A stretch of 64,000 bases of DNA, taken from NCBI GenBank assembly GCA_000687695.1, contig JHWZ01000007.1, positions 62,001 through 126,000 of the forward strand, in the 5' to 3' direction. A model generated the notes under the pieces. That model was given only the letters and a program-made list of their open reading frames with translations. It was not told where the DNA came from and did no database searches. Shown here one piece after another: positions 2,508 to 35,904 of this stretch (the stretch's first letter is position 1; every line of letters begins with the position of its first letter). A program made the position numbers and the translations under genes. Source of the stretch: Lachnospiraceae bacterium P6B14. Lineage in GTDB: Bacteria > Bacillota > Clostridia > Lachnospirales > Lachnospiraceae.

Positions 2508-2680
2508 GGCTCCCTATACGGACTGTTTAAATGTCCGCGGGGGCACGCTTTCGCTTTTTTCTTTAACGTCACGTTGCACGGCTCGAAGGAAACTCTTCGA
2601 GTTTCCTAACCTCACCTGCGCAACGACGTTAAAGACACATCCCCCGCTAGGACAATCTTAAACAGTCCTAATCGGGAGCC
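2508..2680 (-). repeat. Palindromic element C (third, inverted copy of the family at 29641 and 34657)
   Basis: A 173-base near-complete palindrome between smc and ftsY. Outer arms pair GGCTCCC (2508-2514) with GGGAGCC (2674-2680); inner helices pair GGACTGTTTA with TAAACAGTCC, GCGGGGG with CCCCCGC, and CTTTAACGTC (2561-2570) with GACGTTAAAG (2625-2634). Read on the minus strand it has the same order of parts as elements A and B: a short GATGTGTC strand opposite an A-rich strand AAAAAAGCG(A)AAGCGTGCC. Its apex differs: it carries an extra hairpin (GGAAACTC around 2588-2613) instead of the GCGTGC/GCACGC tip. It is antisense to smc and ftsY. Function unknown. Confidence 0.75.
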
Positions 2681-2777: not shown

Positions 2778-3698
2778 ATGGGATTTTTTGAGAGATTAAG
2801 AAACGGAATGAGCAAGTCGCGCAACCAGATGTCCGAATATATGGACGATGTGTTTGCGGCGGGACGTCCGATCGATGATGATTTTTACGAGGAGCTCGAA
2901 GAGATACTCGTTATGGCTGATGTCGGTGCTGAGACTTCTGAAGCTATCATTGAGGAGATGAAGGTTCGGGTTGAGGAGAAAAAATGGTCCGACGCTTATC
3001 TTGCCAAGGATATCCTCAAGGAAATTTTTAAAGAGAAACTAGAGATGCCTATGGATGCGTATTTCTTTATGAATCGCAAATCCGTTGTTCTGGTTATCGG
3101 TGTAAATGGCGTAGGTAAGACAACAAGCGTCGGAAAGATGTCTGCTCTTCTAAAGAACAGAGGCAAGAAAGTGCTACTGTGCGCAGCCGATACTTTTAGG
3201 GCCGGTGCTATCGAGCAGCTTAAAGAGTGGTCTAAAAGAGCGGGAGTTGATATTATCGCGGGAACTGAGGGACAGGACCCTGCGTCGATCGTTTATGACG
3301 CCGTAGCTGCCGCAAAGGCAAGAGATGTTGATATTCTTTTATGTGATACTGCGGGCCGACTTCACAACAAAAAGAATCTCATGAACGAGCTTCACAAGAT
3401 CCATACGATACTTGACAAGGAGTATCCGGGAGCTTATCTTGAGACACTCATAGTAGTTGATGCTACGACCGGGCAGAACGCTCTACAGCAGGTAAAGGAT
3501 TTCTCCGATGTTACGAATGTTACCGGAGTTATACTCACAAAAATGGATGGTACAGCAAAGGGTGGCATCGCTGTGGGAATCTGGTCCGAGTTAAATATCC
3601 CGGTTAAGTTTATCGGTGTGGGAGAGACGATAGAAGACCTTGATATGTTCAAGGGTGATGAATATGTTGAAGCTCTGCTTGGAAATACAGAGAGCTGA
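2778..3698 (+). CDS. ftsY: Signal recognition particle receptor FtsY
   Basis: SRP-type GTPase of 306 residues that docks SRP-bound ribosomes at the membrane for co-translational insertion. The NG domain is complete: N-terminal helical part (residues 1-95), P-loop GVNGVGKTT (108-116), DTFRAGAIEQL (138-148), DTAGR (190-194) and TKMDGTAKGG (254-263). It lacks the long acidic A domain found in E. coli, as is common in Firmicutes. The start ATG is preceded by GATAGGAGA. It is separated from smc by repeat DNA, so it may not be strictly co-transcribed with smc. Confidence 0.97.
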   Translation: MGFFERLRNGMSKSRNQMSEYMDDVFAAGRPIDDDFYEELEEILVMADVGAETSEAIIEEMKVRVEEKKWSDAYLAKDILKEIFKEKLEMPMDAYFFMNRKSVVLVIGVNGVGKTTSVGKMSALLKNRGKKVLLCAADTFRAGAIEQLKEWSKRAGVDIIAGTEGQDPASIVYDAVAAAKARDVDILLCDTAGRLHNKKNLMNELHKIHTILDKEYPGAYLETLIVVDATTGQNALQQVKDFSDVTNVTGVILTKMDGTAKGGIAVGIWSELNIPVKFIGVGETIEDLDMFKGDEYVEALLGNTES

Positions 3699-6925: not shown

Positions 6926-6959
6926 TATCGAAAAATGGCATTTTTCTTAAAAAAATTGC

Positions 6960-6988
6960 TTGACTGAGAGCCGAAAGTATGTTATAGT
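6960..6988 (+). promoter_or_regulatory. Sigma-70 type promoter of rplS
   Basis: TTGACT (6960-6965) and TATAGT (6983-6988) are separated by 17 bases. It lies between hisD and rplS, so L19 is transcribed independently of the histidine genes. Confidence 0.75.
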
Positions 6989-6990
6989 TC

Positions 6991-7066
6991 TAACGTTGTG
7001 CAAAATAATCATTAGATGGTCCGCTAAAGATATATTACTTTATGAACATCGAACGTTAAGGAGGAA
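6991..7066 (+). promoter_or_regulatory. Possible L19 mRNA leader
   Basis: TAACGTT (6991-6997) can pair perfectly with AACGTTA (7052-7058), which abuts the Shine-Dalgarno AGGAGG. That would close a leader of about 68 bases in front of rplS, as expected for an autoregulatory ribosomal-protein leader of the Firmicute L19 type. Caution: the expected transcription start (about 6994-6996) falls inside the 5' arm, so the helix may be shortened. Confidence 0.35.
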
Positions 7067-7071
7067 GAAAG

Positions 7072-27852: not shown

Positions 27853-28251
27853 ATGAATATCGGTTTGATCGCGCATGATTCCAAAAAGATACTCATGCAA
27901 AATTTTTGTATTGCTTATCATGGAATCCTGAGCAAACACAAAATCTTCGCCACGGGTACAACCGGAAGACTAATCGAAGAGGTGACAAACCTTTCGGTCC
28001 ACAAGTTTTTGGCAGGACATCTGGGTGGAGAAAAACAGCTTGGAGCACAGATTGAGGGAAACGAGATCGATCTCGTGATATTTTTGCGGGATCCTCTTAC
28101 TCCAAAGTCTCATGAACCTGATGTAAGTAACATGTTTCAGTTGTGTGATGTTCACAACATCCCGCTTGCTACCAATGTAGCCACAGCTGAACTGCTTATT
28201 AAAGCTCTGGAACGAGGTGATCTTGATTGGAGAGAGCTGGTAAGAATGTAG
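27853..28251 (+). CDS. mgsA: Methylglyoxal synthase (catalytic Asp replaced by Glu)
   Basis: A 132-residue enzyme converting dihydroxyacetone phosphate to methylglyoxal and phosphate. The phosphate-binding FATGTTG, the [10 protein letters not shown] strand and [12 protein letters not shown] are conserved. The second acidic catalytic residue is Asp90 (EPD). The main catalytic base, Asp71 in E. coli (GGDQQ), is Glu60 here (GGEKQLGAQ). The gene follows rodA by 20 bases within the shape operon, a known arrangement in Clostridia. Activity may be altered. Confidence 0.9.
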
Positions 28252-28271
28252 AGGAACATAACGTTGTAAAA

Positions 28272-29621
28272 ATGCGACGCCGACAGACACCCGGTATCGC
28301 ATTTTTCCTGACGCTTTTGATCCTGTTATATCTTATCATACTTGCATGGAATTATTTTACAAAAAGCCATGTCTCCATATACGAGGTAAACACCTCTGAG
28401 ATTTCTGATGATTCTCCTTTATTCGCGTATGTCGTGAGAGAGGAGGAGGTCGTAACTACCGATGATGCCGGCTATATAAACTACTATATATCCGAAGGGT
28501 CAAGGGTAGGAAAAGGTAATATAGTCTATACTCTGGATGATAATGATTCCCTGAGGGAAATGCTCGGTAACATACGCAATGATAATGCCGGAGTTGCTGA
28601 GATTTCACCGATAAGGGAGCAGATTGATTCCTTCAACAATTCTTTTAGTTTATCAAACTATCAGGATGTTTCAAATTTCCATTTTTCAATCAACAATATA
28701 ATTCTCGAGCACAGTCGTGGCAACCTATACAAGACTATGAAAAAGCAAATAAAGGCGTCAGGCTTAGATGCGCAGTATCGCAAGTATAAAGCACCCAAAT
28801 GCGGTGTGATTTCTTATTATACTGACGGATATGAGGACGTAAGGAGTTCAAAGGTAACACCTGAGCTTCTCAAATCAAACGCGTCTATTGAAAGGAAGCA
28901 GGTTGCTTCCACAGGTCATGTTATGTCAGGTGAAGCAGCATATAAGCTTGTCACATCGAATGACTGGTCCTTGGTAACAGAGCTTGACGACAGTTATTAT
29001 CAGACTCTAAAGGATGAAGATTCAGTCCGTATAACCATACTTCGTGACGGAGTTTCGTTTAATGCATCGATAAGACATTTTGAGAGAAACGGAAAGCACC
29101 TTTGTGAGCTTGGTACTTCGAGATATATGGAAAGGTATATCAATGACAGATTTCTCAAGATCGAGTTTAATCTTCGACACGCCAAAGGATTAAAGATCCC
29201 GAACAGCTCAATCCTTAAGAAAGAATACTATGAAGTTCCTCAGGATTTCATCACCGTAAATAACGGTAAACAAACCATCGTAAAACAGGTGACTGACCCC
29301 GATAAAGGTACCTCGGTTGAGAATATAGATATCACGTCAAGCTTTACCGACGAGGATAAAACATATATCAGAGACTCCCGACTGACTGCCGGAGATACCA
29401 TCATGTCCGGCGCCGGAGGACTCTTTACTCTTAACAAAAAAATGGACCGGGAGGGTGTTTATTCCGTCAATGAGGGCTTCTGCAGGTTCCGTCCGGTAAA
29501 CGTATTATACCAGAATAAAGAGTATTCGATCATCGCTAATGATACGAAAGACGGCCTGAAATCATTCGATCATATTGTCGTTGATCCATCAGAACTGACG
29601 GACAATGATTTTATTGATTAA
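28272..29621 (+). CDS. HlyD-like single-pass membrane protein of unknown function
   Basis: About 449 residues: a short basic N-terminus (MRRRQTPG), one membrane helix (about 8-28), then an extracytoplasmic region with lipoyl/barrel-like strands at the start (YINYYISEGSRVGKGNIVYTLD) as in periplasmic adaptor proteins. The C-terminal part resembles the beta-barrel region of adaptors (AGDTIMSGAGG). No exporter partner is adjacent; it is placed between mgsA and the septation genes yggS-sepF-divIVA, so a wall or division role is plausible. The start is uncertain (ATG 28272 preferred; TTG 28227 overlaps mgsA). Confidence 0.7.
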   Translation: MRRRQTPGIAFFLTLLILLYLIILAWNYFTKSHVSIYEVNTSEISDDSPLFAYVVREEEVVTTDDAGYINYYISEGSRVGKGNIVYTLDDNDSLREMLGNIRNDNAGVAEISPIREQIDSFNNSFSLSNYQDVSNFHFSINNIILEHSRGNLYKTMKKQIKASGLDAQYRKYKAPKCGVISYYTDGYEDVRSSKVTPELLKSNASIERKQVASTGHVMSGEAAYKLVTSNDWSLVTELDDSYYQTLKDEDSVRITILRDGVSFNASIRHFERNGKHLCELGTSRYMERYINDRFLKIEFNLRHAKGLKIPNSSILKKEYYEVPQDFITVNNGKQTIVKQVTDPDKGTSVENIDITSSFTDEDKTYIRDSRLTAGDTIMSGAGGLFTLNKKMDREGVYSVNEGFCRFRPVNVLYQNKEYSIIANDTKDGLKSFDHIVVDPSELTDNDFID

Positions 29622-29640: not shown

Positions 29641-29778
29641 GCGTGATGAAAAATGTGTATCACTGTTCGGGATGTGTCTTGTACGTCGTTGCGTAGCGTG
29701 CGTTTTATGCACGCATGCAACGTGACGTACAAGAAAAAAGCGCAAGCGTGCCCGAACAGATACACGTTTTCATCACGC
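29641..29778 (+). repeat. Palindromic element A (138 bp)
   Basis: Arms GCGTGATGAAAA and TTTTCATCACGC enclose nested helices: CTGTTCGGG (29663-29671) with CCCGAACAG (29751-29759), CTTGTACGTC (29678-29687) with GACGTACAAG (29724-29733), GTTGC with GCAAC, and GCGTGC with GCACGC at the tip. One internal loop is asymmetric: GATGTGTC on the left, AAAAAAGCGCAAGCGTG on the right. It fills the gap between the HlyD-like gene and yggS, and is the same length as element B at 34657. No protein is encoded. Confidence 0.8.
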
Positions 29779-29802
29779 GACGTATAGAGAAAGGAGTAAC
29801 GA

Positions 29803-30501
29803 ATGTCAGTAACAGAGAACTTAGAAGAGGTTGAACGAAGAATATGTGCAGCATGCGAGCGCGCAGGACGTGACAGGAGCGAAGTTACGCTTATTGCAGT
29901 AAGCAAGACTAAGCCTATCGAAATGATCGAAGAAGCCGTAGATGCCGGTATTCGTATTTTCGGTGAGAATAAAGTTCAGGAACTCGTGCAGAAGCATGAT
30001 GAGATGGAAGAGGGCCTGGAATGGCATATGATCGGACATCTTCAGACAAATAAGGTTAAAATGCTCCCGGGACGAACAAAAATGATCCACAGCGTAGATT
30101 CACTTCATCTGGCAGAAGAGATTAATAAGCAGTATGCAAAGCATGGTGAGATTGCGCACGTTTTGATCGAGGTGAACATGGCCGGCGAGGAGAGTAAGTT
30201 TGGACTCGCACCACAAGATGTGGAGTCATTTTTGGACGAAATCGCAAAATTTGCCAATATTTATGTCCACGGACTGATGACAATTGCACCATTTGTGGAA
30301 GATGCGAATGAAAATCGGAAGATTTTTACAGATTTAAAGAAATTACTTATTGACATGAAGAGGAAAAACAACGATAATATAGATATGAGAGAATTGTCCA
30401 TGGGGATGACCGGTGACTATGAAGTAGCGATAGAAGAGGGGGCTACTTTTGTCAGAGTCGGAACGGGTATCTTTGGGGCGAGAAACTATCAGAAAGGATG
30501 A
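29803..30501 (+). CDS. PLP homeostasis protein (YggS/PLPBP family)
   Basis: Single-domain alanine-racemase-fold PLP carrier of 232 residues. The PLP lysine is in IAVSKTKP (near residue 36), and GENKVQEL, WHMIGHLQTNK and ELSMGMTGDYEVAIEEGATFVRVG are conserved. It buffers pyridoxal phosphate and amino acid balance. The start follows AAAGGAG. The yggS-sepF order is conserved across Gram-positive bacteria. Confidence 0.94.
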   Translation: MSVTENLEEVERRICAACERAGRDRSEVTLIAVSKTKPIEMIEEAVDAGIRIFGENKVQELVQKHDEMEEGLEWHMIGHLQTNKVKMLPGRTKMIHSVDSLHLAEEINKQYAKHGEIAHVLIEVNMAGEESKFGLAPQDVESFLDEIAKFANIYVHGLMTIAPFVEDANENRKIFTDLKKLLIDMKRKNNDNIDMRELSMGMTGDYEVAIEEGATFVRVGTGIFGARNYQKG

Positions 30502-30507
30502 AGTTAG

Positions 30508-31026
30508 ATGGCTTTAAAATCAGTTTTGGATTTCTTCAAAATCGGAGAAGAAGACGGCGACGATTATGAAGATGATTATTATGAGAACGAAGAGCCTGAG
30601 GCACCTGCAGAAAGAGAGCCCAGGAAAAGAACCTTCGCTTCTCAGACACGTGAAGAAACAGTAGACGAGGAGACGACAAAAAGACCGTCATTCCTCAGCT
30701 CAAAATCAAAGGTGGTGGCTATGAAACCAGCAATGCAGGTAAATATCATCTCTCCAAGTTCATTTGAGGATTCACAGGAAATATGTAATAAGCTTTTATC
30801 AGGACGTCCGGTAGTTGTAAATCTCGAGGGCTTTGATCCGGATGACGCTCAGCGAATTATGGATTTCATTTCCGGGTGTATATACGCGATAAACGGTAAA
30901 TACAACCAGATTGCAAAGTATATATTTATCTTTTCACCGGAAAACGTGGATATCAACAGCGATTCTTTGTCAATCAATGACAATAATACCGTATCCATGA
31001 TGCCTACTATCGAGAAAGAGTTCTAG
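30508..31026 (+). CDS. sepF: Cell division protein SepF
   Basis: A 172-residue membrane anchor for FtsZ. It has the N-terminal amphipathic membrane-binding segment (about 1-13), an acidic, disordered linker (15-75), and the conserved C-terminal domain (80-165) with GRPVVVNLEGFDPDDAQRIMDF and DFISGCIYAINGK. It follows yggS by 6 bases and precedes divIVA by 12, consistent with a septation operon. Confidence 0.95.
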   Translation: MALKSVLDFFKIGEEDGDDYEDDYYENEEPEAPAEREPRKRTFASQTREETVDEETTKRPSFLSSKSKVVAMKPAMQVNIISPSSFEDSQEICNKLLSGRPVVVNLEGFDPDDAQRIMDFISGCIYAINGKYNQIAKYIFIFSPENVDINSDSLSINDNNTVSMMPTIEKEF

Positions 31027-31038
31027 GAGGAGTGAGCG

Positions 31039-32478
31039 ATGCTGTCGCCATTAGAATTAGAGAATAAACGTATACTTACAAACAAGCGCAGGTACGATCG
31101 TTACGAGATGGACGAGTACCTTGATATGGTTTTTGAAAACTATAAAGAGCTTTTTAACGCATACGAAGAACAGAAAAAACAGATAAAAACTCTCAGTGAG
31201 GGGATTCAGTATTATCGTTCTATCGAGTCCACCATGCAGAAGGCTTTGCTTCTCGCAGAGAAGACATCGAAAGAAACAAAGGATGCTGCTATTCTAAAGG
31301 CTGAGGCCATCGAAAAGGATGCAAATAACAAAGCAGCCAAGATACTCGGAACTGCTGAGCAGGAGTATACGCGTATTCGTGAAAAATGTATCGAACTTGT
31401 TACTCAGTTCAACAATTATAAAGCACAGCTTCAGATTGCGGCAAATGAGCAGCTTAAACTCATAACCAGTACGACATTTGACATTGAGACTCCTGAGATT
31501 GACAAGCAGGAGGATGTTAAGGCATCAGGACTTGAGTCAGTTGATGCCATGTCAGCCGTAAAGGAGCCTTATGTAGCTAACGTTGAGCCTGTTCAACCTG
31601 ATACGATTGCACCGGTTGAGCCGGTAGCCTCGCAGCCTGAACCGGTTGCTCCACAGCCTGAACCGGTTGCTCCACAGCTTGAGCCGTTTGCTCCTATGGA
31701 GTCGTTTGCTTCTGTTCAACAGGAGAGTGTTCAACCGGAATCATTTGTACAGATGGAAGCTGAAGCTGCACCTGTAGAGCCTGTCGCACAGCAGGAAGCT
31801 GAACCGGCATCTGTTGAGTCATTTGCTCAGACGCAGGAGGATCAATCTACTCAGTTTACAACAATTGGAGAGCCGGAGGCTACAGTTGCTCCTGAAACAT
31901 CAGTTGGTATGGAAACTGTTGTTCCTACAGGGATGGATGCAGTAGTAGAAGAGCGTCCAAAATCAAATGTGTACTCGTATTCAGCGACAGGAAACACAAA
32001 TCCTTTACCGAATCTTTCCGGTGATATTTATAAGAGTCCGGAGACAGCACAGCAAGAGCAGGATATTTCTTCTCAGTTTGAGATGTATACGGAAACGCCT
32101 GTTGCAGCTACTCAGCCTGAGCCCGTCTCTGAGAAGACTATGATACTGCCTGATGTAAAAAAAGCTGACAGAGAGTCATTACGAGTATCAAAAACCTACT
32201 CTGAGGAAGAACAGCTTCAGATCCTTTCGGCTGAGACGATAAATCTCGGTGATTCGATAAAAGCTGTTAAAGAAAAGGAAATGCTCGAGGTTCCGCAGCG
32301 TGATGAGACCGAACAGATTGTTTTGGAGCCGGGTGTTACCGAAACTCCTGTTTCAGGACAGCCTAAAACTGGTCTTGATACCATACTTCAGAGTATGACA
32401 ATAGGTAAAAAGAAAAAAGCAAACGGAGAAAGTGCTGAGGATCCATTTGAGTTTCTCGGCAGCGTAGATGATTTCTGA
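31039..32478 (+). CDS. divIVA: DivIVA-family protein with long Pro/Glu/Val-rich tail
   Basis: A 479-residue protein. The N-terminal DivIVA lipid-binding domain (MLSPLELENKRILTNKRRYD) and coiled coil (residues 30-155) recognise curved membrane at poles and septa. The C-terminal half (about 165-430) is low complexity, with imperfect repeats of the type PEPVAPQ and EPVA, and ends in a short basic/acidic segment. The tail is about twice the length of the usual DivIVA. Its stop overlaps the lspA start (TGATG). Confidence 0.88.
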   Translation: MLSPLELENKRILTNKRRYDRYEMDEYLDMVFENYKELFNAYEEQKKQIKTLSEGIQYYRSIESTMQKALLLAEKTSKETKDAAILKAEAIEKDANNKAAKILGTAEQEYTRIREKCIELVTQFNNYKAQLQIAANEQLKLITSTTFDIETPEIDKQEDVKASGLESVDAMSAVKEPYVANVEPVQPDTIAPVEPVASQPEPVAPQPEPVAPQLEPFAPMESFASVQQESVQPESFVQMEAEAAPVEPVAQQEAEPASVESFAQTQEDQSTQFTTIGEPEATVAPETSVGMETVVPTGMDAVVEERPKSNVYSYSATGNTNPLPNLSGDIYKSPETAQQEQDISSQFEMYTETPVAATQPEPVSEKTMILPDVKKADRESLRVSKTYSEEEQLQILSAETINLGDSIKAVKEKEMLEVPQRDETEQIVLEPGVTETPVSGQPKTGLDTILQSMTIGKKKKANGESAEDPFEFLGSVDDF

Positions 32479-32987
32479 TGAAAGAAAAACGTTTTTCAAT
32501 GATGAAGATCCATGTTGTTTATTCAGCGATCTTCATCATTGCTTTAGTAATTGATCGTATTACAAAAATATGGGCGTCTTCCCAACTTGTATCAGAGGAT
32601 ATAAGCTTATGGGATGGCGTTCTTAAGTTTCATTATCTGGAAAACCGGGGGGCTGCTTGGGGACTGTTTCAAAACGCCTTCTGGCTTTTTTATATCATTA
32701 CGGCAGTGGCGGTCGTTATTATGGCTATCATATATGCCAGGATACCATTTTCAAAAAGATATCATTTGCTCAGATTTCTTTTGGTAATGCTTTGTACGGG
32801 AGCTGTTGGCAATTTCATTGACCGTGCGTTATATCATTATGTTGTTGATTTCATAAGTGTTGAATTCATCAATTTCCCCGTATTCAATGTAGCTGATATA
32901 TATGTGACCGTTTCCGTATTTTTGATGGTTATTGCCCTGTTTTTCAAATACAGCAAGGATGATGATCTATGGAAAAAGAAAGCGTAG
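32478..32987 (+). CDS. lspA: Lipoprotein signal peptidase (SPase II)
   Basis: Aspartic membrane protease of 169 residues that cleaves prolipoproteins. Four membrane helices are visible, and both catalytic Asp residues are present: Asp115 in GNFIDR and Asp140 in FNVADIY. The NRGAAWGLF motif is intact. The start overlaps the divIVA stop; its end overlaps rluD by 19 bases. Confidence 0.96.
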   Translation: MKEKRFSMMKIHVVYSAIFIIALVIDRITKIWASSQLVSEDISLWDGVLKFHYLENRGAAWGLFQNAFWLFYIITAVAVVIMAIIYARIPFSKRYHLLRFLLVMLCTGAVGNFIDRALYHYVVDFISVEFINFPVFNVADIYVTVSVFLMVIALFFKYSKDDDLWKKKA

Positions 32988-33922
32988 CTTGTGATCAGGT
33001 TATACAGCTTTTCGTCAGTCGAGGCGATGATAATCTTCGTCTCGATATTTTTTTGACGGAACAGACGGAGTATTCTCGTTCATTTATACAAAAGTTGATC
33101 AAACAGGAGAGTATAACTATCGATGATAAACCTGCGAAAAAAGCTGGTCAACCTATTCACGCAGGCTCGATAATTAAGCTTTTTGTTCCGCCGATAAAGG
33201 AGCTTTCCATAGAATCAGAGAATATGGAGCTTGATATCGTGTACGAGGACGAGGACGTGATACTTATCAATAAACCAAAAGGAATGGTTGTACATCCGGC
33301 ACCGGGACATGAGTCGCACACCCTCGTAAACGGACTTATGTATCACTGCAAGGATCATTTATCCGATATAAACGGAATACTTCGTCCCGGGATAGTCCAC
33401 AGGATCGATATGGATACAACCGGAATAATCATCGCATGTAAAAATGACACGTCACATCAAAGCCTGGCTAAACAGTTTGCTGATCACAGCATTACAAGAC
33501 GTTATCAGGCGATCGTATACAATAATTTCAAAGAAGATGACGGTACAATTGATAAGCCTCTTGCCAGAGATCCGAAAGACAGAAAACGTATGGCTGTCGT
33601 ATCAGAGGACAAAGGACGCAGGGCAGTGACTCATTATCACGTGTTAGATCATCTGAATAACAGATTTAACCACGTAGAATGTCAGCTTGAAACAGGTCGA
33701 ACTCATCAGATTAGAGTCCATATGGCTTCAATCAGACATCCGTTGTTAGGTGATCAGGTATATGGACCAAAGCCCGAATCAGCGTTTGCATCACTCGAAG
33801 GACAGGTTCTTCATGCAGGAATTCTCGGATTTGTCCATCCGAGGACAGGTCAATATATGGAGTTCGAATCTGAGCTGCCGCAATATTTTGTATCTTTGCT
33901 TGAACGCCTGAAAAATAATTGA
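32969..33922 (+). CDS. RluD-type 23S rRNA pseudouridine synthase
   Basis: A 317-residue protein with an N-terminal S4 domain (about 20-80) and a RluA-family catalytic domain, with the nucleophile Asp147 in HRIDMDTTG, followed by GRTHQIRVHMA. This family modifies large-subunit rRNA; the exact uridines cannot be assigned. lspA-rluD is a conserved Firmicute pair. The usual downstream pyr genes are absent here. Confidence 0.92.
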   Translation: MEKESVACDQVIQLFVSRGDDNLRLDIFLTEQTEYSRSFIQKLIKQESITIDDKPAKKAGQPIHAGSIIKLFVPPIKELSIESENMELDIVYEDEDVILINKPKGMVVHPAPGHESHTLVNGLMYHCKDHLSDINGILRPGIVHRIDMDTTGIIIACKNDTSHQSLAKQFADHSITRRYQAIVYNNFKEDDGTIDKPLARDPKDRKRMAVVSEDKGRRAVTHYHVLDHLNNRFNHVECQLETGRTHQIRVHMASIRHPLLGDQVYGPKPESAFASLEGQVLHAGILGFVHPRTGQYMEFESELPQYFVSLLERLKNN

Positions 33923-33941
33923 AATTCACGAAAAAAACCTC

Positions 33942-34011
33942 TTGACAAGACCATGTACACAGGTGTAGAATATCTATTGCAACAACGAAAAATCGTGTGT
34001 ACACGTTTGTA
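33942..34011 (+). promoter_or_regulatory. Promoter and two operators of the BlaI-type gene
   Basis: TTGACA (33942-33947) and TAGAAT (33966-33971), 18-base spacer. A perfect dyad TACACAGGTGTA (33956-33967) lies in the spacer and touches the -10. A second, near-dyad TACACGTTTGTA (34000-34011) is 44 bases downstream, just before the gene. Both fit the TACA..TGTA pattern bound by MecI/BlaI/CopY repressors, suggesting autorepression. Confidence 0.7.
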
Positions 34012-34029
34012 GAACAAGGGGATATGTTA

Positions 34030-34413
34030 ATGGCAAACAAATCTGATGAAATTCGATTGCATGAAGGCGAGTTAAACGTCATGGAGCTTTTGTGGTCCAA
34101 CAGTGTTCTCGCTGCAAAGGATATTGCAAAGATCATCAAAGAGTATATCGGTTGGGAGAAGAATACGACCTACACGGTTATTAAACGACTGATCGATAAA
34201 GGTGCCGTGTCACGTGAGGATCCCGGTTTTAACTGCAGGGCTAAGGTGACAAAAAAAGAAGTTCAGCGTATTGAGACCGAGGCTTTGTTATCAAAAATGT
34301 TCAATGGATCACTCAGTGTATTTATCCAGGATTATCTTGGACAGAGAAAACTTAACACTGAAGAGATCATCGAACTTCAGAGAATGATCAATCGAAATCA
34401 GAAAGCCGGCTGA
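34030..34413 (+). CDS. BlaI/MecI-family transcriptional repressor
   Basis: A 127-residue winged-helix repressor. The family core is clear: LHEGELNVMELLW, DIAKIIKEYIGWEKNTTYTV (recognition helix) and IKRLIDKGAVSRE, with a C-terminal dimerisation helix. No blaR/mecR sensor and no beta-lactamase lie next to it, so the trigger for derepression is unknown. The ATG at 34030 follows AAGGGGA. Two TACA..TGTA operators lie in its promoter region. Confidence 0.92.
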   Translation: MANKSDEIRLHEGELNVMELLWSNSVLAAKDIAKIIKEYIGWEKNTTYTVIKRLIDKGAVSREDPGFNCRAKVTKKEVQRIETEALLSKMFNGSLSVFIQDYLGQRKLNTEEIIELQRMINRNQKAG

Positions 34414-34453
34414 TGAATAGCAGTGGTTCTCATCAAAAAAATGTATTTTATAT

Positions 34454-34483
34454 GCCTTATGACTCAGGTCATAGGGCTTTTTC
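34454..34483 (+). terminator. Intrinsic terminator after the BlaI-type gene
   Basis: GCCTTATGAC pairs with GTCATAGGGC around a TCAG loop (one mismatch or wobble), followed by a T-rich run. The next 97 bases (34484-34580) hold nothing I recognise. Confidence 0.8.
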
Positions 34484-34580
34484 TTTATCTACGCAAACTG
34501 CTGTAAATACGTCGTTTCAAGAAGATAATATGATATGAGAGATATAGCTCTCTTGGACAAACTCCAGTTTTTCAAAAACC

Positions 34581-34610
34581 TTGACATATAACTTGTTTCT
34601 ATGATATAAT
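34581..34610 (+). promoter_or_regulatory. Promoter of the recombinase gene
   Basis: TTGACA (34581-34586), 18-base spacer, TATAAT (34605-34610). The expected 5' untranslated region is about 215 bases and contains all of element B. Confidence 0.75.
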
Positions 34611-34656
34611 ATTAAAAGCTATAGACGTATTCTAGTTTTTGCCAAAGTTGAATAAG

Positions 34657-34794
34657 GCGTGATGAAAAATGTGTATCACTGTGATGGATGTCTCTTGAAC
34701 GTCGGTGCGTAGCGTGCGTATTTTGCACGCATGCACCGCTACGTTCAAGAAAAAAGCGCAAGCGTGCCATCACAGATACACGTATTCATCACGC
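34657..34794 (+). repeat. Palindromic element B (138 bp), in the leader of the recombinase gene
   Basis: Same architecture and length as element A. The outer arms GCGTGATGAAAA and ATTCATCACGC are nearly the same, but inner helices differ with compensating changes: CTGTGATGG (34679-34687) pairs with CCATCACAG (34767-34775), CTTGAACGT (34694-34702) with ACGTTCAAG (34741-34749), and GGTGC with GCACC. The unpaired strands (GATGTCTC; AAAAAAGCGCAAGCGTG) are kept. It lies between the promoter at 34581 and the recombinase start, so it would be transcribed as leader RNA. Confidence 0.8.
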
Positions 34795-34833: not shown

Positions 34834-35904
34834 ATGGCCATTGATAAAAAGATCACGTATCACGAGCAGACGTCTCGTGAAAACACACGAAAGCTTCGTG
34901 AGGTATTGGAGACTTTGCCTCCGTTTTGCAGAGATTATTTCCGTGCAATGGAACCAAAGACCTCAGCTAAGACCAGAATAAGCTACGTATACGATATACG
35001 CCTTTTCTTTACATTTTTATGCGAAAGCAATCCTTACTTCAAAAAGAAGGATGACATCACATCGATAAGGCTTGATGAATTGGAACAGCTTAATGCTATC
35101 GATATCGAGGAATTTATGGAGTATTTGAAGCTGTATGAGGATGAGTCTGGTGTGACTCATACAAATGGTGAACGAGGCTTAAAACGCAAATTAGCGTCTC
35201 TGAGGAGCTTTTTTAACTATTATTACAAGCATGAGCTCATCAAAACCAATCCAACAGTCATCGTAGACATGCCAAAGCTTCATAAACAGGAAATAACCAG
35301 ACTGGATTATGATGAGGTTGCAAATCTCCTTGACTATGTAGAACATGGCGGAGAGGCGATGACAGGCATGAAAAGAACGTATTTTGAAAAGAATCGCGTA
35401 AGAAATCTCGCACTCTTCACTCTCCTTTTAGGTACCGGCATTCGTGTTTCAGAGTGTGTAGGGTTGGATACAGAGGATATTGACTTTAAAAATAACCGTA
35501 TCAGGATAATACGAAAAGGCGGCAAGGAGGACTTCGTTTACTTTGGTGATGAGGTTGCCGAGGCTATGTACACATATTATGAAGAACGAAAAACAGTTGA
35601 TACAAAGCAGGGCCATGAGCATGCGTTTTTCTTATCAATTCAGAAAAGACGAATCACGGTACAGGCTGTTGAGGACCTCGTAAAGGAGGCCGCCTCACAT
35701 GTGACTACCGTAAAGCATATCACGCCTCATAAGCTCAGATCTACGTATGGTACCAGTCTTTACAGAGAAACCGGTGATATTTACCTCGTAGCAGAGGTTT
35801 TGGGCCATAATGACGTAAATACAACGAGACGACACTACGCTGCTCTCGATGAGGATCGCAAACGAAGGGCCGCCTCGGCAGTTACATTACGTAAGGACGA
35901 ATAG
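34834..35904 (+). CDS. Tyrosine recombinase of Xer type
   Basis: A 356-residue site-specific recombinase. The N-terminal core-binding domain is about 30-140; the catalytic residues are Arg204 (GTGIRVSE), Lys228/231 (RKGGKE), His299 and Arg302 (TPHKLRST), His325 (LGHND) and Tyr335 (HYAAL). All are present. Its length and N-terminal LPPFCRDYFRAM resemble single-protein chromosome-dimer resolvases (XerS type), but no phage genes are near, so a housekeeping role is more likely than a phage integrase. AGGAGG lies 8 bases before the ATG. Its stop is 1 base from that of the convergent amidase. Confidence 0.88.
   Translation: MAIDKKITYHEQTSRENTRKLREVLETLPPFCRDYFRAMEPKTSAKTRISYVYDIRLFFTFLCESNPYFKKKDDITSIRLDELEQLNAIDIEEFMEYLKLYEDESGVTHTNGERGLKRKLASLRSFFNYYYKHELIKTNPTVIVDMPKLHKQEITRLDYDEVANLLDYVEHGGEAMTGMKRTYFEKNRVRNLALFTLLLGTGIRVSECVGLDTEDIDFKNNRIRIIRKGGKEDFVYFGDEVAEAMYTYYEERKTVDTKQGHEHAFFLSIQKRRITVQAVEDLVKEAASHVTTVKHITPHKLRSTYGTSLYRETGDIYLVAEVLGHNDVNTTRRHYAALDEDRKRRAASAVTLRKDE

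Follow-up and report, generated by a model that had tools for sequence, protein, structure and literature searches.

The 64-kb stretch of DNA analysed here (the window) contains large palindromes whose helices differ in sequence while their pairing is kept, and the question they raise is whether such helices belong to a structured RNA or to a mobile palindromic element. A sequence check found two of them, elements A and B, at the positions given in the original prediction, each 138 bases long and with the arm and helix differences it described. The features are:

29641..29778, + strand: element A, whole hairpin, 138 bases (model score 135.8 bits), flanking genes HlyD-family (28227-29621) and alanine-racemase-N-domain (29803-30501), the latter taken to be yggS-like
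29663..29671, + strand: 5' arm of helix P1 of A, CTGTTCGGG, from the fold and the aligned helix (partner arm 29751-29759); a two-base CA bulge lies immediately outside P1 on the 5' side
29672..29678, + strand: 5' strand of the conserved, asymmetric junction of A, ATGTGTC, from the alignment
29677..29734, + strand: inner hairpin P2-P3 of A, with variable P2a arms at 29677-29687 and 29724-29734 and P3 apical
29734..29750, + strand: 3' strand of the junction of A, AAAAAAGCGCAAGCGTG, nearly invariant in the family alignments
29740..29747, + strand: mini-hairpin GCGCAAGC within the junction 3' strand of A
34657..34794, + strand: element B, whole hairpin, 138 bases (model score 134.5 bits), flanking genes penicillinase-repressor-domain (33997-34413) and phage-integrase-family, a tyrosine recombinase (34834-35904)
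34688..34694, + strand: 5' strand of the junction of B, ATGTCTC
34750..34766, + strand: 3' strand of the junction of B, AAAAAAGCGCAAGCGTG
2508..2680, - strand: element C, whole hairpin, 173 bases (core 2520-2664, 100.4 bits), outermost arms GGCTCCC/GGGAGCC, flanking genes SMC-domain (108-2498) and SRP54-GTPase-domain (2778-3698)
2544..2560, - strand: 3' strand of the junction of C, AAAAAAGCGAAAGCGTG

All three elements sit between unrelated chromosomal genes and not in cassette arrays, and A and B have the same arms at unrelated genomic places. Folded alone, A reached -78.7 kcal/mol (z -11.54) and B -77.2 kcal/mol (z -11.03), with 0 of 200 shuffles as good in either case. The asymmetric unpaired strand, AAAAAAGCGNAAGCGTG, had been called nearly invariant, and it is nearly invariant in the family alignments as well. 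With up to two mismatches the window holds three occurrences where 0.04 would be expected, and with up to one mismatch the genome holds 32, the reversed pattern being found 0 times. A covariance model run on the window recovered A, B and C and a weak reverse-strand echo of A (E 0.019). The proposed family of three copies was far too small, since the model finds 63 matches in this genome (G000); there are 58 in G048 and 54 in G002. Matches occur in 20 of the 39 genomes of the genus and in 22 genomes from 10 other genera, 11 genera in all. The order search matched 23 of 295 genomes and the class search 7 of 291, both counts including G000. All matching genomes carry one family label, Lachnospiraceae by record title, and the family is, as far as tested, confined to Lachnospiraceae. 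Elements A, B and C are members of an unnamed dispersed repeat family. Crude ORF predictions place 52 of 85 copies outside both neighbouring frames; 11 run into one of them by fewer than 20 bases and 22 by more, the predictions behind these larger overlaps having been taken unchecked. Many copies, dispersed mostly between genes, agree with the suggested look of a mobile palindromic element.

No match to the family was found in the phages and plasmids searched. Viral contigs held 50 stretches with the exact motif, 0 of them with a GATGTGTC-like strand upstream. A scan of named genomes gave 44 stretches, 34 from assemblies CAMVOY01 and ONKC01 and one from a goat-rumen Eubacterium record; the hairpin was absent from the 90 bases upstream of the remaining nine. 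With Rfam, only a tRNA rose above threshold in the window, a permissive search with element A returned at best (E 0.048) microRNA models far below the cut-offs, and 19 distant-genus loci matched only the S10-Clostridia leader and TwoAYGGAY, both located elsewhere in those loci.

Each copy is a long quasi-palindrome with one conserved fold. Outer arms with small bulges lead through helix P1 and an asymmetric junction to P2, which carries a two-base bulge, and the apex is a short stem closed by a T-rich loop. In the junction, about 7 bases lie opposite a strand of 16-17 bases carrying the mini-hairpin GCG[A/C]AAGC, the tetraloop of which is GCAA or GAAA in every readable copy, as first noticed in the window. 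Junction, bulges and loop are fixed across copies; the helices vary yet remain paired. Modules reassort, giving 102 distinct combinations among 114 copies. From 89 candidate cores, 78 entered alignment A1, leaving out nine near-copies or mis-anchored cores, one degenerate copy (later scored as a member) and one chance window hit; alignment A3 comprises 100 loci and 120 matches, 114 of them distinct. Arm pairing followed outward from the edge of the core gave no information, owing to an offset internal loop. Under RNA parameters the plus strand folds better than the minus strand in 98 of 111 copies, and under DNA parameters in 86 of 111; its mismatches are more often purine-purine (169) than pyrimidine-pyrimidine (21), indicating that the plus strand is the one that folds. 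Tandem G·A/A·G occurs in P1 of 19 of 114 copies, and in 18 at each of two matching apical columns.

Covariation is very strong. Both sides change at 36 of 41 pairs, paired cells amount to 87.6% versus 66.2% in shuffles, and double-change cells number 706 versus 231.6, values that 0 of 500 shuffles reach, which bears out the claim that pairing is kept while sequence changes. The value for further pair types was reached by 5 of 500 shuffles and those of the other four covariation measures by none. The search of the genome and its relatives with a covariance model, proposed at the outset, yielded many matches with significant covariation and fixed loops, the opposite of the refuting outcome. The fold is conserved, but the reading that its covariation shows selection on an RNA is less well supported, given rare G·T, mixed orientation and no recurring promoter-like position in the flanks.

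The counts of wobble pairs bear on this directly. Among 4047 helix cells there are 39 G·T (about 1%) versus 31 A·C, a count that omits five column pairs, two misaligned outer ones and three in an alternate register (one mostly G·T). In the omitted column 48-97, 77 of 112 copies have G·T, and all helix columns together hold 125 G·T and 93 A·C in 4609 cells. Inner helices P1, P2a and P3 alone contain 25 G·T versus 13 A·C of 2921, a mild excess in the RNA direction; P2a in A1 has two A·C cells. Isolated outer-arm mismatches, taken from a wobble-blind alignment, comprise 13 GT, 12 AC, 14 purine-purine and 15 pyrimidine-pyrimidine versus 3155 Watson-Crick pairs, and those of the inner hairpin 32 C·A (one fixed column), three GG, one TG and one TC. 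As a control, 30 tRNAs of the same genome gave 47 GT and 0 AC of 644 (GT 7.3%), under a stem model that may exclude A·C. Near alleles show 50 transitions and 50 transversions, and in P1 20 versus 10.

Fifteen sites were aligned between two close species; the core was in place at nine, inverted at two, exchanged at three and lost at one. Inversion within the same arms was observed at the element C site (versus G048) and at the L011 site. Nine ortholog pairs between G000 and G048 are identical at 1330 of 1340 positions (99%) versus 20235 of 22438 (90%) in the flanks, a comparison that omits one pair covered over only 44 bases (43/44). Across ten such pairs, all 11 base differences are one-sided (two-sided 0 of 11), so that correction of one arm by the other does not show at short range. 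Identity of 100% also occurs in another intergenic stretch (146 bases) and in the bases next to A, and high identity is thus not unique to the elements. Presence of copies varies between species, some sites being empty or scarred.

We favour, with our confidence evenly balanced, a dispersed DNA hairpin repeat of the ERIC/REP/MITE type, with its fold selected and its arms matched largely at the DNA level, over an independently expressed RNA. Arm complementarity would be kept largely at the DNA level through polymerase template switching between the arms. Selection would hold junction, bulges and loops for the sake of a factor that binds the plus strand in its folded state, either as single-stranded DNA during replication or as a cruciform; the same factor may have spread the family in trans. 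Switching of this kind between inverted repeats can produce arm covariation and core inversions like those seen here. It is described as homogenising arms and inverting spacers, with inverted repeats more conserved than their surroundings (PMC8604942; a further source on switching between inverted repeats is PMC8794818). The family shares arm matching, spacer inversion and conservation above its surroundings with such quasi-palindromes, but its recent ortholog changes are one-sided, and the palindromes as presented in PMC8604942 are unrelated short repeats, whereas the copies described here form a single dispersed family in which the internal loops are retained.

Several observations count against the favoured reading: the mild inner-helix G·T excess, the mostly-G·T column 48-97, the surplus of transitions in P1, the one-sided ortholog changes, 100% identity elsewhere, the lack of an enzyme or a clean target-site duplication, and a sense bias of distant co-directional copies.

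ERIC is defined by conserved sequence, and we know of no dedicated enzyme for it. In the present family the sequence is mostly variable, with fixed stretches confined to junction, bulges and loops, and the taxon is another; B compared with 20,395 E. coli records in distant mode gave no match, and so no ERIC similarity. The likeness lies in a multi-copy, dispersed, long imperfect palindrome, mostly between genes, with one stem-loop, ERIC being described as intergenic dispersed imperfect palindromes of about 127 bases that form one long stem-loop (PMC2267715).

That the family is a structured RNA acting in transcripts (as a leader, intercistronic stabiliser, RNase target or terminator), with covariation reflecting RNA-fold selection, is possible but doubtful. 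Such an RNA would fit the better-folding plus strand, the constant tetraloop, the inner-helix G·T excess with its one mostly-G·T column, the 99% identity of orthologs, and the orientation in other genera, where 13 of 19 distant-genus loci were examined and co-directional copies were sense in nine cases and antisense in two (10 versus 4 with L309 and L314 added). The reading is weakened by G·T pairs near the level of A·C (about 1% versus 7.3% in tRNAs; 13 versus 12 in outer arms) and by mixed gene orientation in this species group, the neighbour directions relative to the element (n=85) being (-,-) in 35, (+,+) in 27, (+,-) in 15 and (-,+) in 8. It is further opposed by the inversion of cores between species, by the lack of an Rfam match for the family, and by the flanks of 100 copies, which showed no recurrent or promoter-like position at the fixed distances from the core that were tested. 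A single-gene cis-regulator was rejected: 15 of 20 neighbouring proteins of distant copies match Pfam, with no family common to two loci, although epimerase and glycosyltransferase families recur once L309 and L314 are added. GCAA/GAAA loops and tandem G·A also fit RNA.

Covariation-based methods for structured RNA would call this hairpin family, and its strong compensatory covariation, largely without G·U and combined with in-place inversions, makes it a test case for template switching versus RNA selection. Among candidate structured RNAs of human microbiomes, 250 of 3161 families, found by structure prediction, are palindromic; 230 of these 250 are predicted terminators, the named examples come from Bacteroidetes, and the main text is without Lachnospiraceae (PMC8040213).

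It is unlikely that the family represents an unseen class of single-stranded-DNA hairpin mobile element, with an enzyme unrelated to known hairpin transposases, sheared G·A pairs and a mini-hairpin of DNA type in the one strand that folds, and obligate head-to-head doublets able to capture a gene. Neighbouring copies within 500 bases were divergent (-,+) in 15 of 15 cases among the 150 matches listed, and in G055, G100 and G255 divergent pairs spaced by about 1 kb enclose one gene. The doublet as one unit was rejected, its interiors sharing no sequence by eye, as was a transposase between the 1-kb pairs, the gene being RmlD-family in G255 and DUF2334/polysaccharide-deacetylase in G055; in G100 the pair encloses one 253-codon ORF.

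Quite unlikely is a scheme in which the outer arms are pre-existing target hairpins, often terminators, with the core inserted into their loops. G000 carries the hairpin GGAATGTGTCAAC-AAA-GTTGACACATTCC at a site where the loop holds a core in G048, and G048 carries a terminator-like hairpin, with an 8-base ATATATCA repeat at its ends, where G000 has a core; flanks are slightly A-rich on the left and T-rich on the right. Against this scheme, the same arms are found in A and B although these lie at unrelated places, two outgroup sites (G010 at yggS and G002 at the L001 site) are without a hairpin by eye, and other sites hold partial remnants, as after central deletion. A repeat like that of 8 bases was not seen at the other empty or filled sites, nor was a clean target-site duplication.

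A known single-strand hairpin system, that is, IS200/IS605 or REP-RAYT ends or integron attC sites, is very unlikely, for all its resemblance in bulged imperfect hairpins, conserved structure, variable sequence and inverted doublets. REP/BIME/REPIN sequences are likewise intergenic hairpins, often in inverted pairs, but unlike those with RAYT the family hairpin is much longer, copy-rich genomes are without Y1 transposase and the pair interiors have no sequence in common by eye. The attC sites are imperfect hairpins with structure conserved over sequence, extrahelical bases and unpaired spacers. Here, too, bulged imperfect hairpins keep structure and not sequence, but they are dispersed in both orientations, with A, B and C outside cassette arrays. 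No Y1_Tnp match was found in eight genomes (G000, G002, G007, G008, G010, G011, G015 and G048), a Y1 HUH transposase being present in 10 of the 39 genus genomes, which have 0 to 6 copies each. No integron integrase exceeded the cut-off in any of the 39; weaker matches in 38 are what any tyrosine recombinase would give. A single recent duplication that then acquired random differences, to which the 88% identity of A and B might point, is refuted by the module combinations, the 11 genera and a covariation score that shuffles never reach.

The family is also a widespread repeat of Lachnospiraceae that has gone unannotated, and it prompts one to ask by what means it has spread. Searches for Y1_Tnp, integron integrase and RVT_1 found no mobilising enzyme, in genomes of which some are incomplete, and a diverged enzyme could still exist. 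A retroelement was rejected because RVT_1 does not follow copy number: G000 has one and G002 two, G048, G015, G010, G008, G011, G022 and G009 have none, and 11 copy-free genomes have it. By local GC skew, replication-strand bias is weak (34 versus 50 of 84 copies).

Three copies of the hairpin family lie in the window, and its sequence bears out the predicted positions of elements A and B and a length of 138 bases for each.

29641-29778, plus strand: element A
34657-34794, plus strand: element B
2508-2680, minus strand: element C, located by sequence and by a model match

Folded as single strands, A and B reached z-scores of -11.54 and -11.03, with none of 200 shuffles of either folding as well. 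A covariance model built here from 78 copies scored A, B and C at 135.8, 134.5 and 100.4 bits; the fourth window match was a weak reverse-strand echo of A (E 0.019). The original prediction spoke of a three-copy family, which holds for the window but falls far short of the genome total: the model matched 63 times in the source genome (G000), 58 times in a close species (G048) and 54 times in another relative (G002). The search of genome and relatives that it proposed thus returned many further copies, with strong covariation and a nearly invariant junction. Moreover, the junction strand AAAAAAGCGNAAGCGTG was found 32 times in the source genome at up to one mismatch (15 forward, 17 reverse), and the reversed pattern gave none.

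With B as the query, blastn matched 7 of 41 genomes, while model matches were present in 20 of the 39 genomes of the genus. Searches at order and class level matched 23 of 295 genomes (G000 counted), from 11 of 129 genera, and 7 of 291 genomes, respectively, with copy numbers that are lower bounds because scoring there was limited to 11 candidates per genome, under stricter filters; the family label was identical in every matching genome. The hairpin family is real, widespread and unnamed. Nothing like it was found in the non-subscription literature searched, where one survey lists 250 palindromic candidates out of 3161, with Lachnospiraceae absent from its main text (PMC8040213), and another describes 92 families of stem-loops across 40 genomes (PMC2267715). 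A lone and very divergent member was the single model match in G012 (L155, 1400-1535), and known RNAs were seen near two distant copies: TwoAYGGAY (L303, 1176-1338) and an S10-Clostridia leader (L301, 821-919).

The anatomy of the element was derived from alignments of 78 and then 114 distinct copies. The outer arms are followed by a two-base bulge on the 5' side, usually CA, and by P1, a helix of nine pairs. In the asymmetric junction the 5' strand approximates ATGTGTC, with one T kept in 111 of 114 copies, and the 3' strand carries a nearly invariant GCG[A/C]AAGCG, the fourth base of which is C in 58 copies, A in 54 and a gap in two, and never G or T. P2a comprises about eleven pairs, ACG/CGT being nearly fixed within it; then come a two-base bulge on the 3' side and a bulged A (112 of 114), and the apex is a short stem with a loop of the type GT-N-TTTT. 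In a subfamily found in G010, G015 and elsewhere, the A-rich stretch is shortened and the bases around the mini-hairpin differ, but GCG[A/C]AAGCG is retained, as it is in the best 6 of 21 matches from distant genera.

Pairing was kept while sequence changed. Standard pairs filled 87.6% of 3196 cells against 66.2% after shuffling, both sides had changed in 36 of 41 pairs, and double-change cells numbered 706 against 231.6, values reached by none of 500 shuffles; for further pair types, 5 shuffles of the 500 matched the observed value. Pairing fell to 26-51% when the partner was shifted by one to three columns. The 114 copies carry 79 distinct P1 arms, 38 P2a helices and 34 apical stems in 102 combinations, and since the most frequent P2a allele is combined with 20 different P1 alleles and 11 apical ones, the modules reassort. 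At one site with common flanks (L023 in G000, L041 in G010), four helix pairs differed by eye, all of them two-sided.

Fate of the core at 15 common sites aligned between G000 and G048
Same core in place, same orientation (9): A, B, L002, L005, L006, L008, L012, L023, L028
Core inverted between the same arms (2): C, L011
Different core (3): L013, L014, L026
Most of the core gone from G048 (1): L003

Nine ortholog pairs were identical at 1330 of 1340 positions, compared with 20235 of 22438 in flanks more than 150 bases away, and a tenth, covered over 44 bases, matched at 43; across the ten pairs, each of the 11 substitutions was one-sided. Identity to G048 within the window is 99.3% for A and B, against 90.4% for other intergenic DNA and 68-82% for third codon positions of four genes. 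However, identity is complete over the 43 bases beside A, the final 150 bases of the preceding gene, and a 146-base intergenic stretch (6926-7071). Several copy-free sites show loss by deletion, and insertion is inferred from comparison with outgroups. By eye, G010 has no copy upstream of the yggS-like gene that follows A; at L001, G002 lacks any arm and G048 has a shortened hairpin; at L027, the G048 hairpin is shortened, with no copy; remnants replace the copy in G048 at L010 and in G002 at L201 and L205; and G000 has none at L205 and L194. At L002, G048 carries an extra core inside the loop of a hairpin that is empty in G000.

Further irregularities were noted beside individual copies. The arm sequence CTAATCGGGAGCC forms a short tandem array beside C (2681-2760) in G000 but not in G048, and other short strings, among them GTGCCAAAC and CTCGAACTGCTC, recur beside some copies (L005, L015), as if arms had been duplicated coreless. 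Upstream of yggS in G002, an A arm is inverted and joined to a different 3' half (L123, 1-300), near a contig end and possibly chimeric.

The family most probably consists of dispersed hairpin repeats akin to ERIC and REP, operating at the DNA level and evolving in an unusual way, and it appears to fold on the plus strand. Among non-Watson-Crick cells, purine-purine combinations outnumber pyrimidine-pyrimidine ones by 169 to 21, a large share being tandem G·A/A·G, which in 19 of 114 copies takes the place of two Watson-Crick pairs in P1, closed by C-G or T-A; equivalent apical columns hold 18 such cells each, although the copies share ancestry and neither count represents independent events. 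Sheared tandem G·A/A·G is stable in RNA as in DNA, and because it is stable only on the strand as written, that strand would be the one that folds. DNA mini-hairpins of the d(GCGAAGC) type are known to be extraordinarily stable (PMC10527192, PMC4686876), a property that suits single-stranded DNA, but GCAA and GAAA fit RNA too.

A structured RNA acting in transcripts is the less probable reading, and we consider it rather unlikely. Selection on an RNA helix is expected to prefer G·U over A·C, yet with five column pairs left out the helices of the 114 copies hold 39 G·T and 31 A·C in 4047 cells. P1, P2a and P3 alone lean further towards G·T (25 against 13 of 2921), and so does the count with every column (125 against 93 of 4609), the latter owing to column 48-97, which is G·T in 77 of 112 copies, and the adjacent 47-98, which is C·A in 34. 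Both counts speak against the DNA-level reading. When outer arms were realigned with every mismatch scored equally, isolated mismatches showed neither preference nor purine bias (G·T 13, A·C 12, purine-purine 14, pyrimidine-pyrimidine 15; Watson-Crick 3155); those of the inner hairpin were C·A 32 (a fixed column), GG 3, TG 1 and TC 1 against 2130 Watson-Crick pairs. In contrast, tRNAs of the same genome (30 of 45 found) gave 47 G·T and no A·C in 644 pairs. The firmer contrast lies in the proportion of G·T, 7.3% against about 1%, since the program's stem model may exclude A·C. The proposed selection on a fold stands as regards kept pairing and fixed loops; that the fold is one of RNA is less well supported. 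Near alleles differed by 50 transitions and 50 transversions overall, and by 20 and 10 in P1.

Gene context is similarly divided. Around 85 copies, orthologs included and three more lying at edges, the flanking genes relative to the element were (-,-) in 35, (+,+) in 27, (+,-) in 15 and (-,+) in 8, which argues against a transcript role, but at 13 of 19 loci from distant genera the element was sense in 9 of 11 co-directional cases (10 against 4 with L309 and L314 added). The rough ORF calls behind these counts place 52 copies free of overlap with either neighbour, 11 with an overlap of fewer than 20 bases on one, and 22 with a longer one. No position beyond the arm was conserved at fixed distances from the core in the flanks of 100 copies, and no sigma-70-like site was found in the scanned surroundings of A.

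For a DNA-level repeat, the arms of each copy may be kept matched by template switching between them. This process is reported to homogenise the arms of inverted repeats and to invert spacers, and proteobacterial non-coding inverted repeats were reported to be more conserved than their surroundings (PMC8604942). It can also give rise to hairpins and to several compensating changes at once, although whether it helps to maintain short stems is described as less clear and circumstantial (PMC8794818). This family displays covariation, inversion and raised conservation, but no two-sided changes between its closest orthologs. Because template switching alone would erase internal loops, selection must keep them, which in turn implies some factor that recognises the strand in its folded form.

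Y1 transposases were absent from G000 and its copy-rich relatives. RVT_1 was found once in G000, twice in G002 and also in 11 copy-free genomes, and was absent from G048, G015, G010, G008, G011, G022 and G009. No integron integrase exceeded the cut-off in 39 genomes (weaker matches in 38). A phage-integrase-family gene lies downstream of B; no recombinase was found beside A or C or among 20 proteins tested around distant copies.

Among the 150 matches listed, all 15 neighbouring pairs within 500 bases were oriented (-,+), at no fewer than 13 places since two couples look orthologous (G000 contig 15/G048 contig 31; G002 contig 96/G048 contig 55). The single pair 500-3000 bases apart was (-,-), and pairs beyond 3 kb were distributed at random over the four orientations (11, 10, 11, 10). 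The close pairs occur in G000, G002, G010, G015 and G048, and by eye their interiors of 40-263 bases have no common sequence. The alleles of the G000 contig 15 doublet (L024, L197) stand in swapped order in G048, as if the doublet had been turned round. Three more (-,+) pairs, about 1 kb apart, each enclose one gene.

L314, 2001-3184: divergent pair about 1 kb apart
L309, 1501-2806: divergent pair about 1 kb apart
L315, 2001-3248: divergent pair about 1 kb apart

The enclosed genes are a DUF2334/polysaccharide deacetylase in G055, an ORF of 253 codons in the corresponding position of G100 and an RmlD-family gene in G255, lying in polysaccharide-type clusters like captured cassettes.
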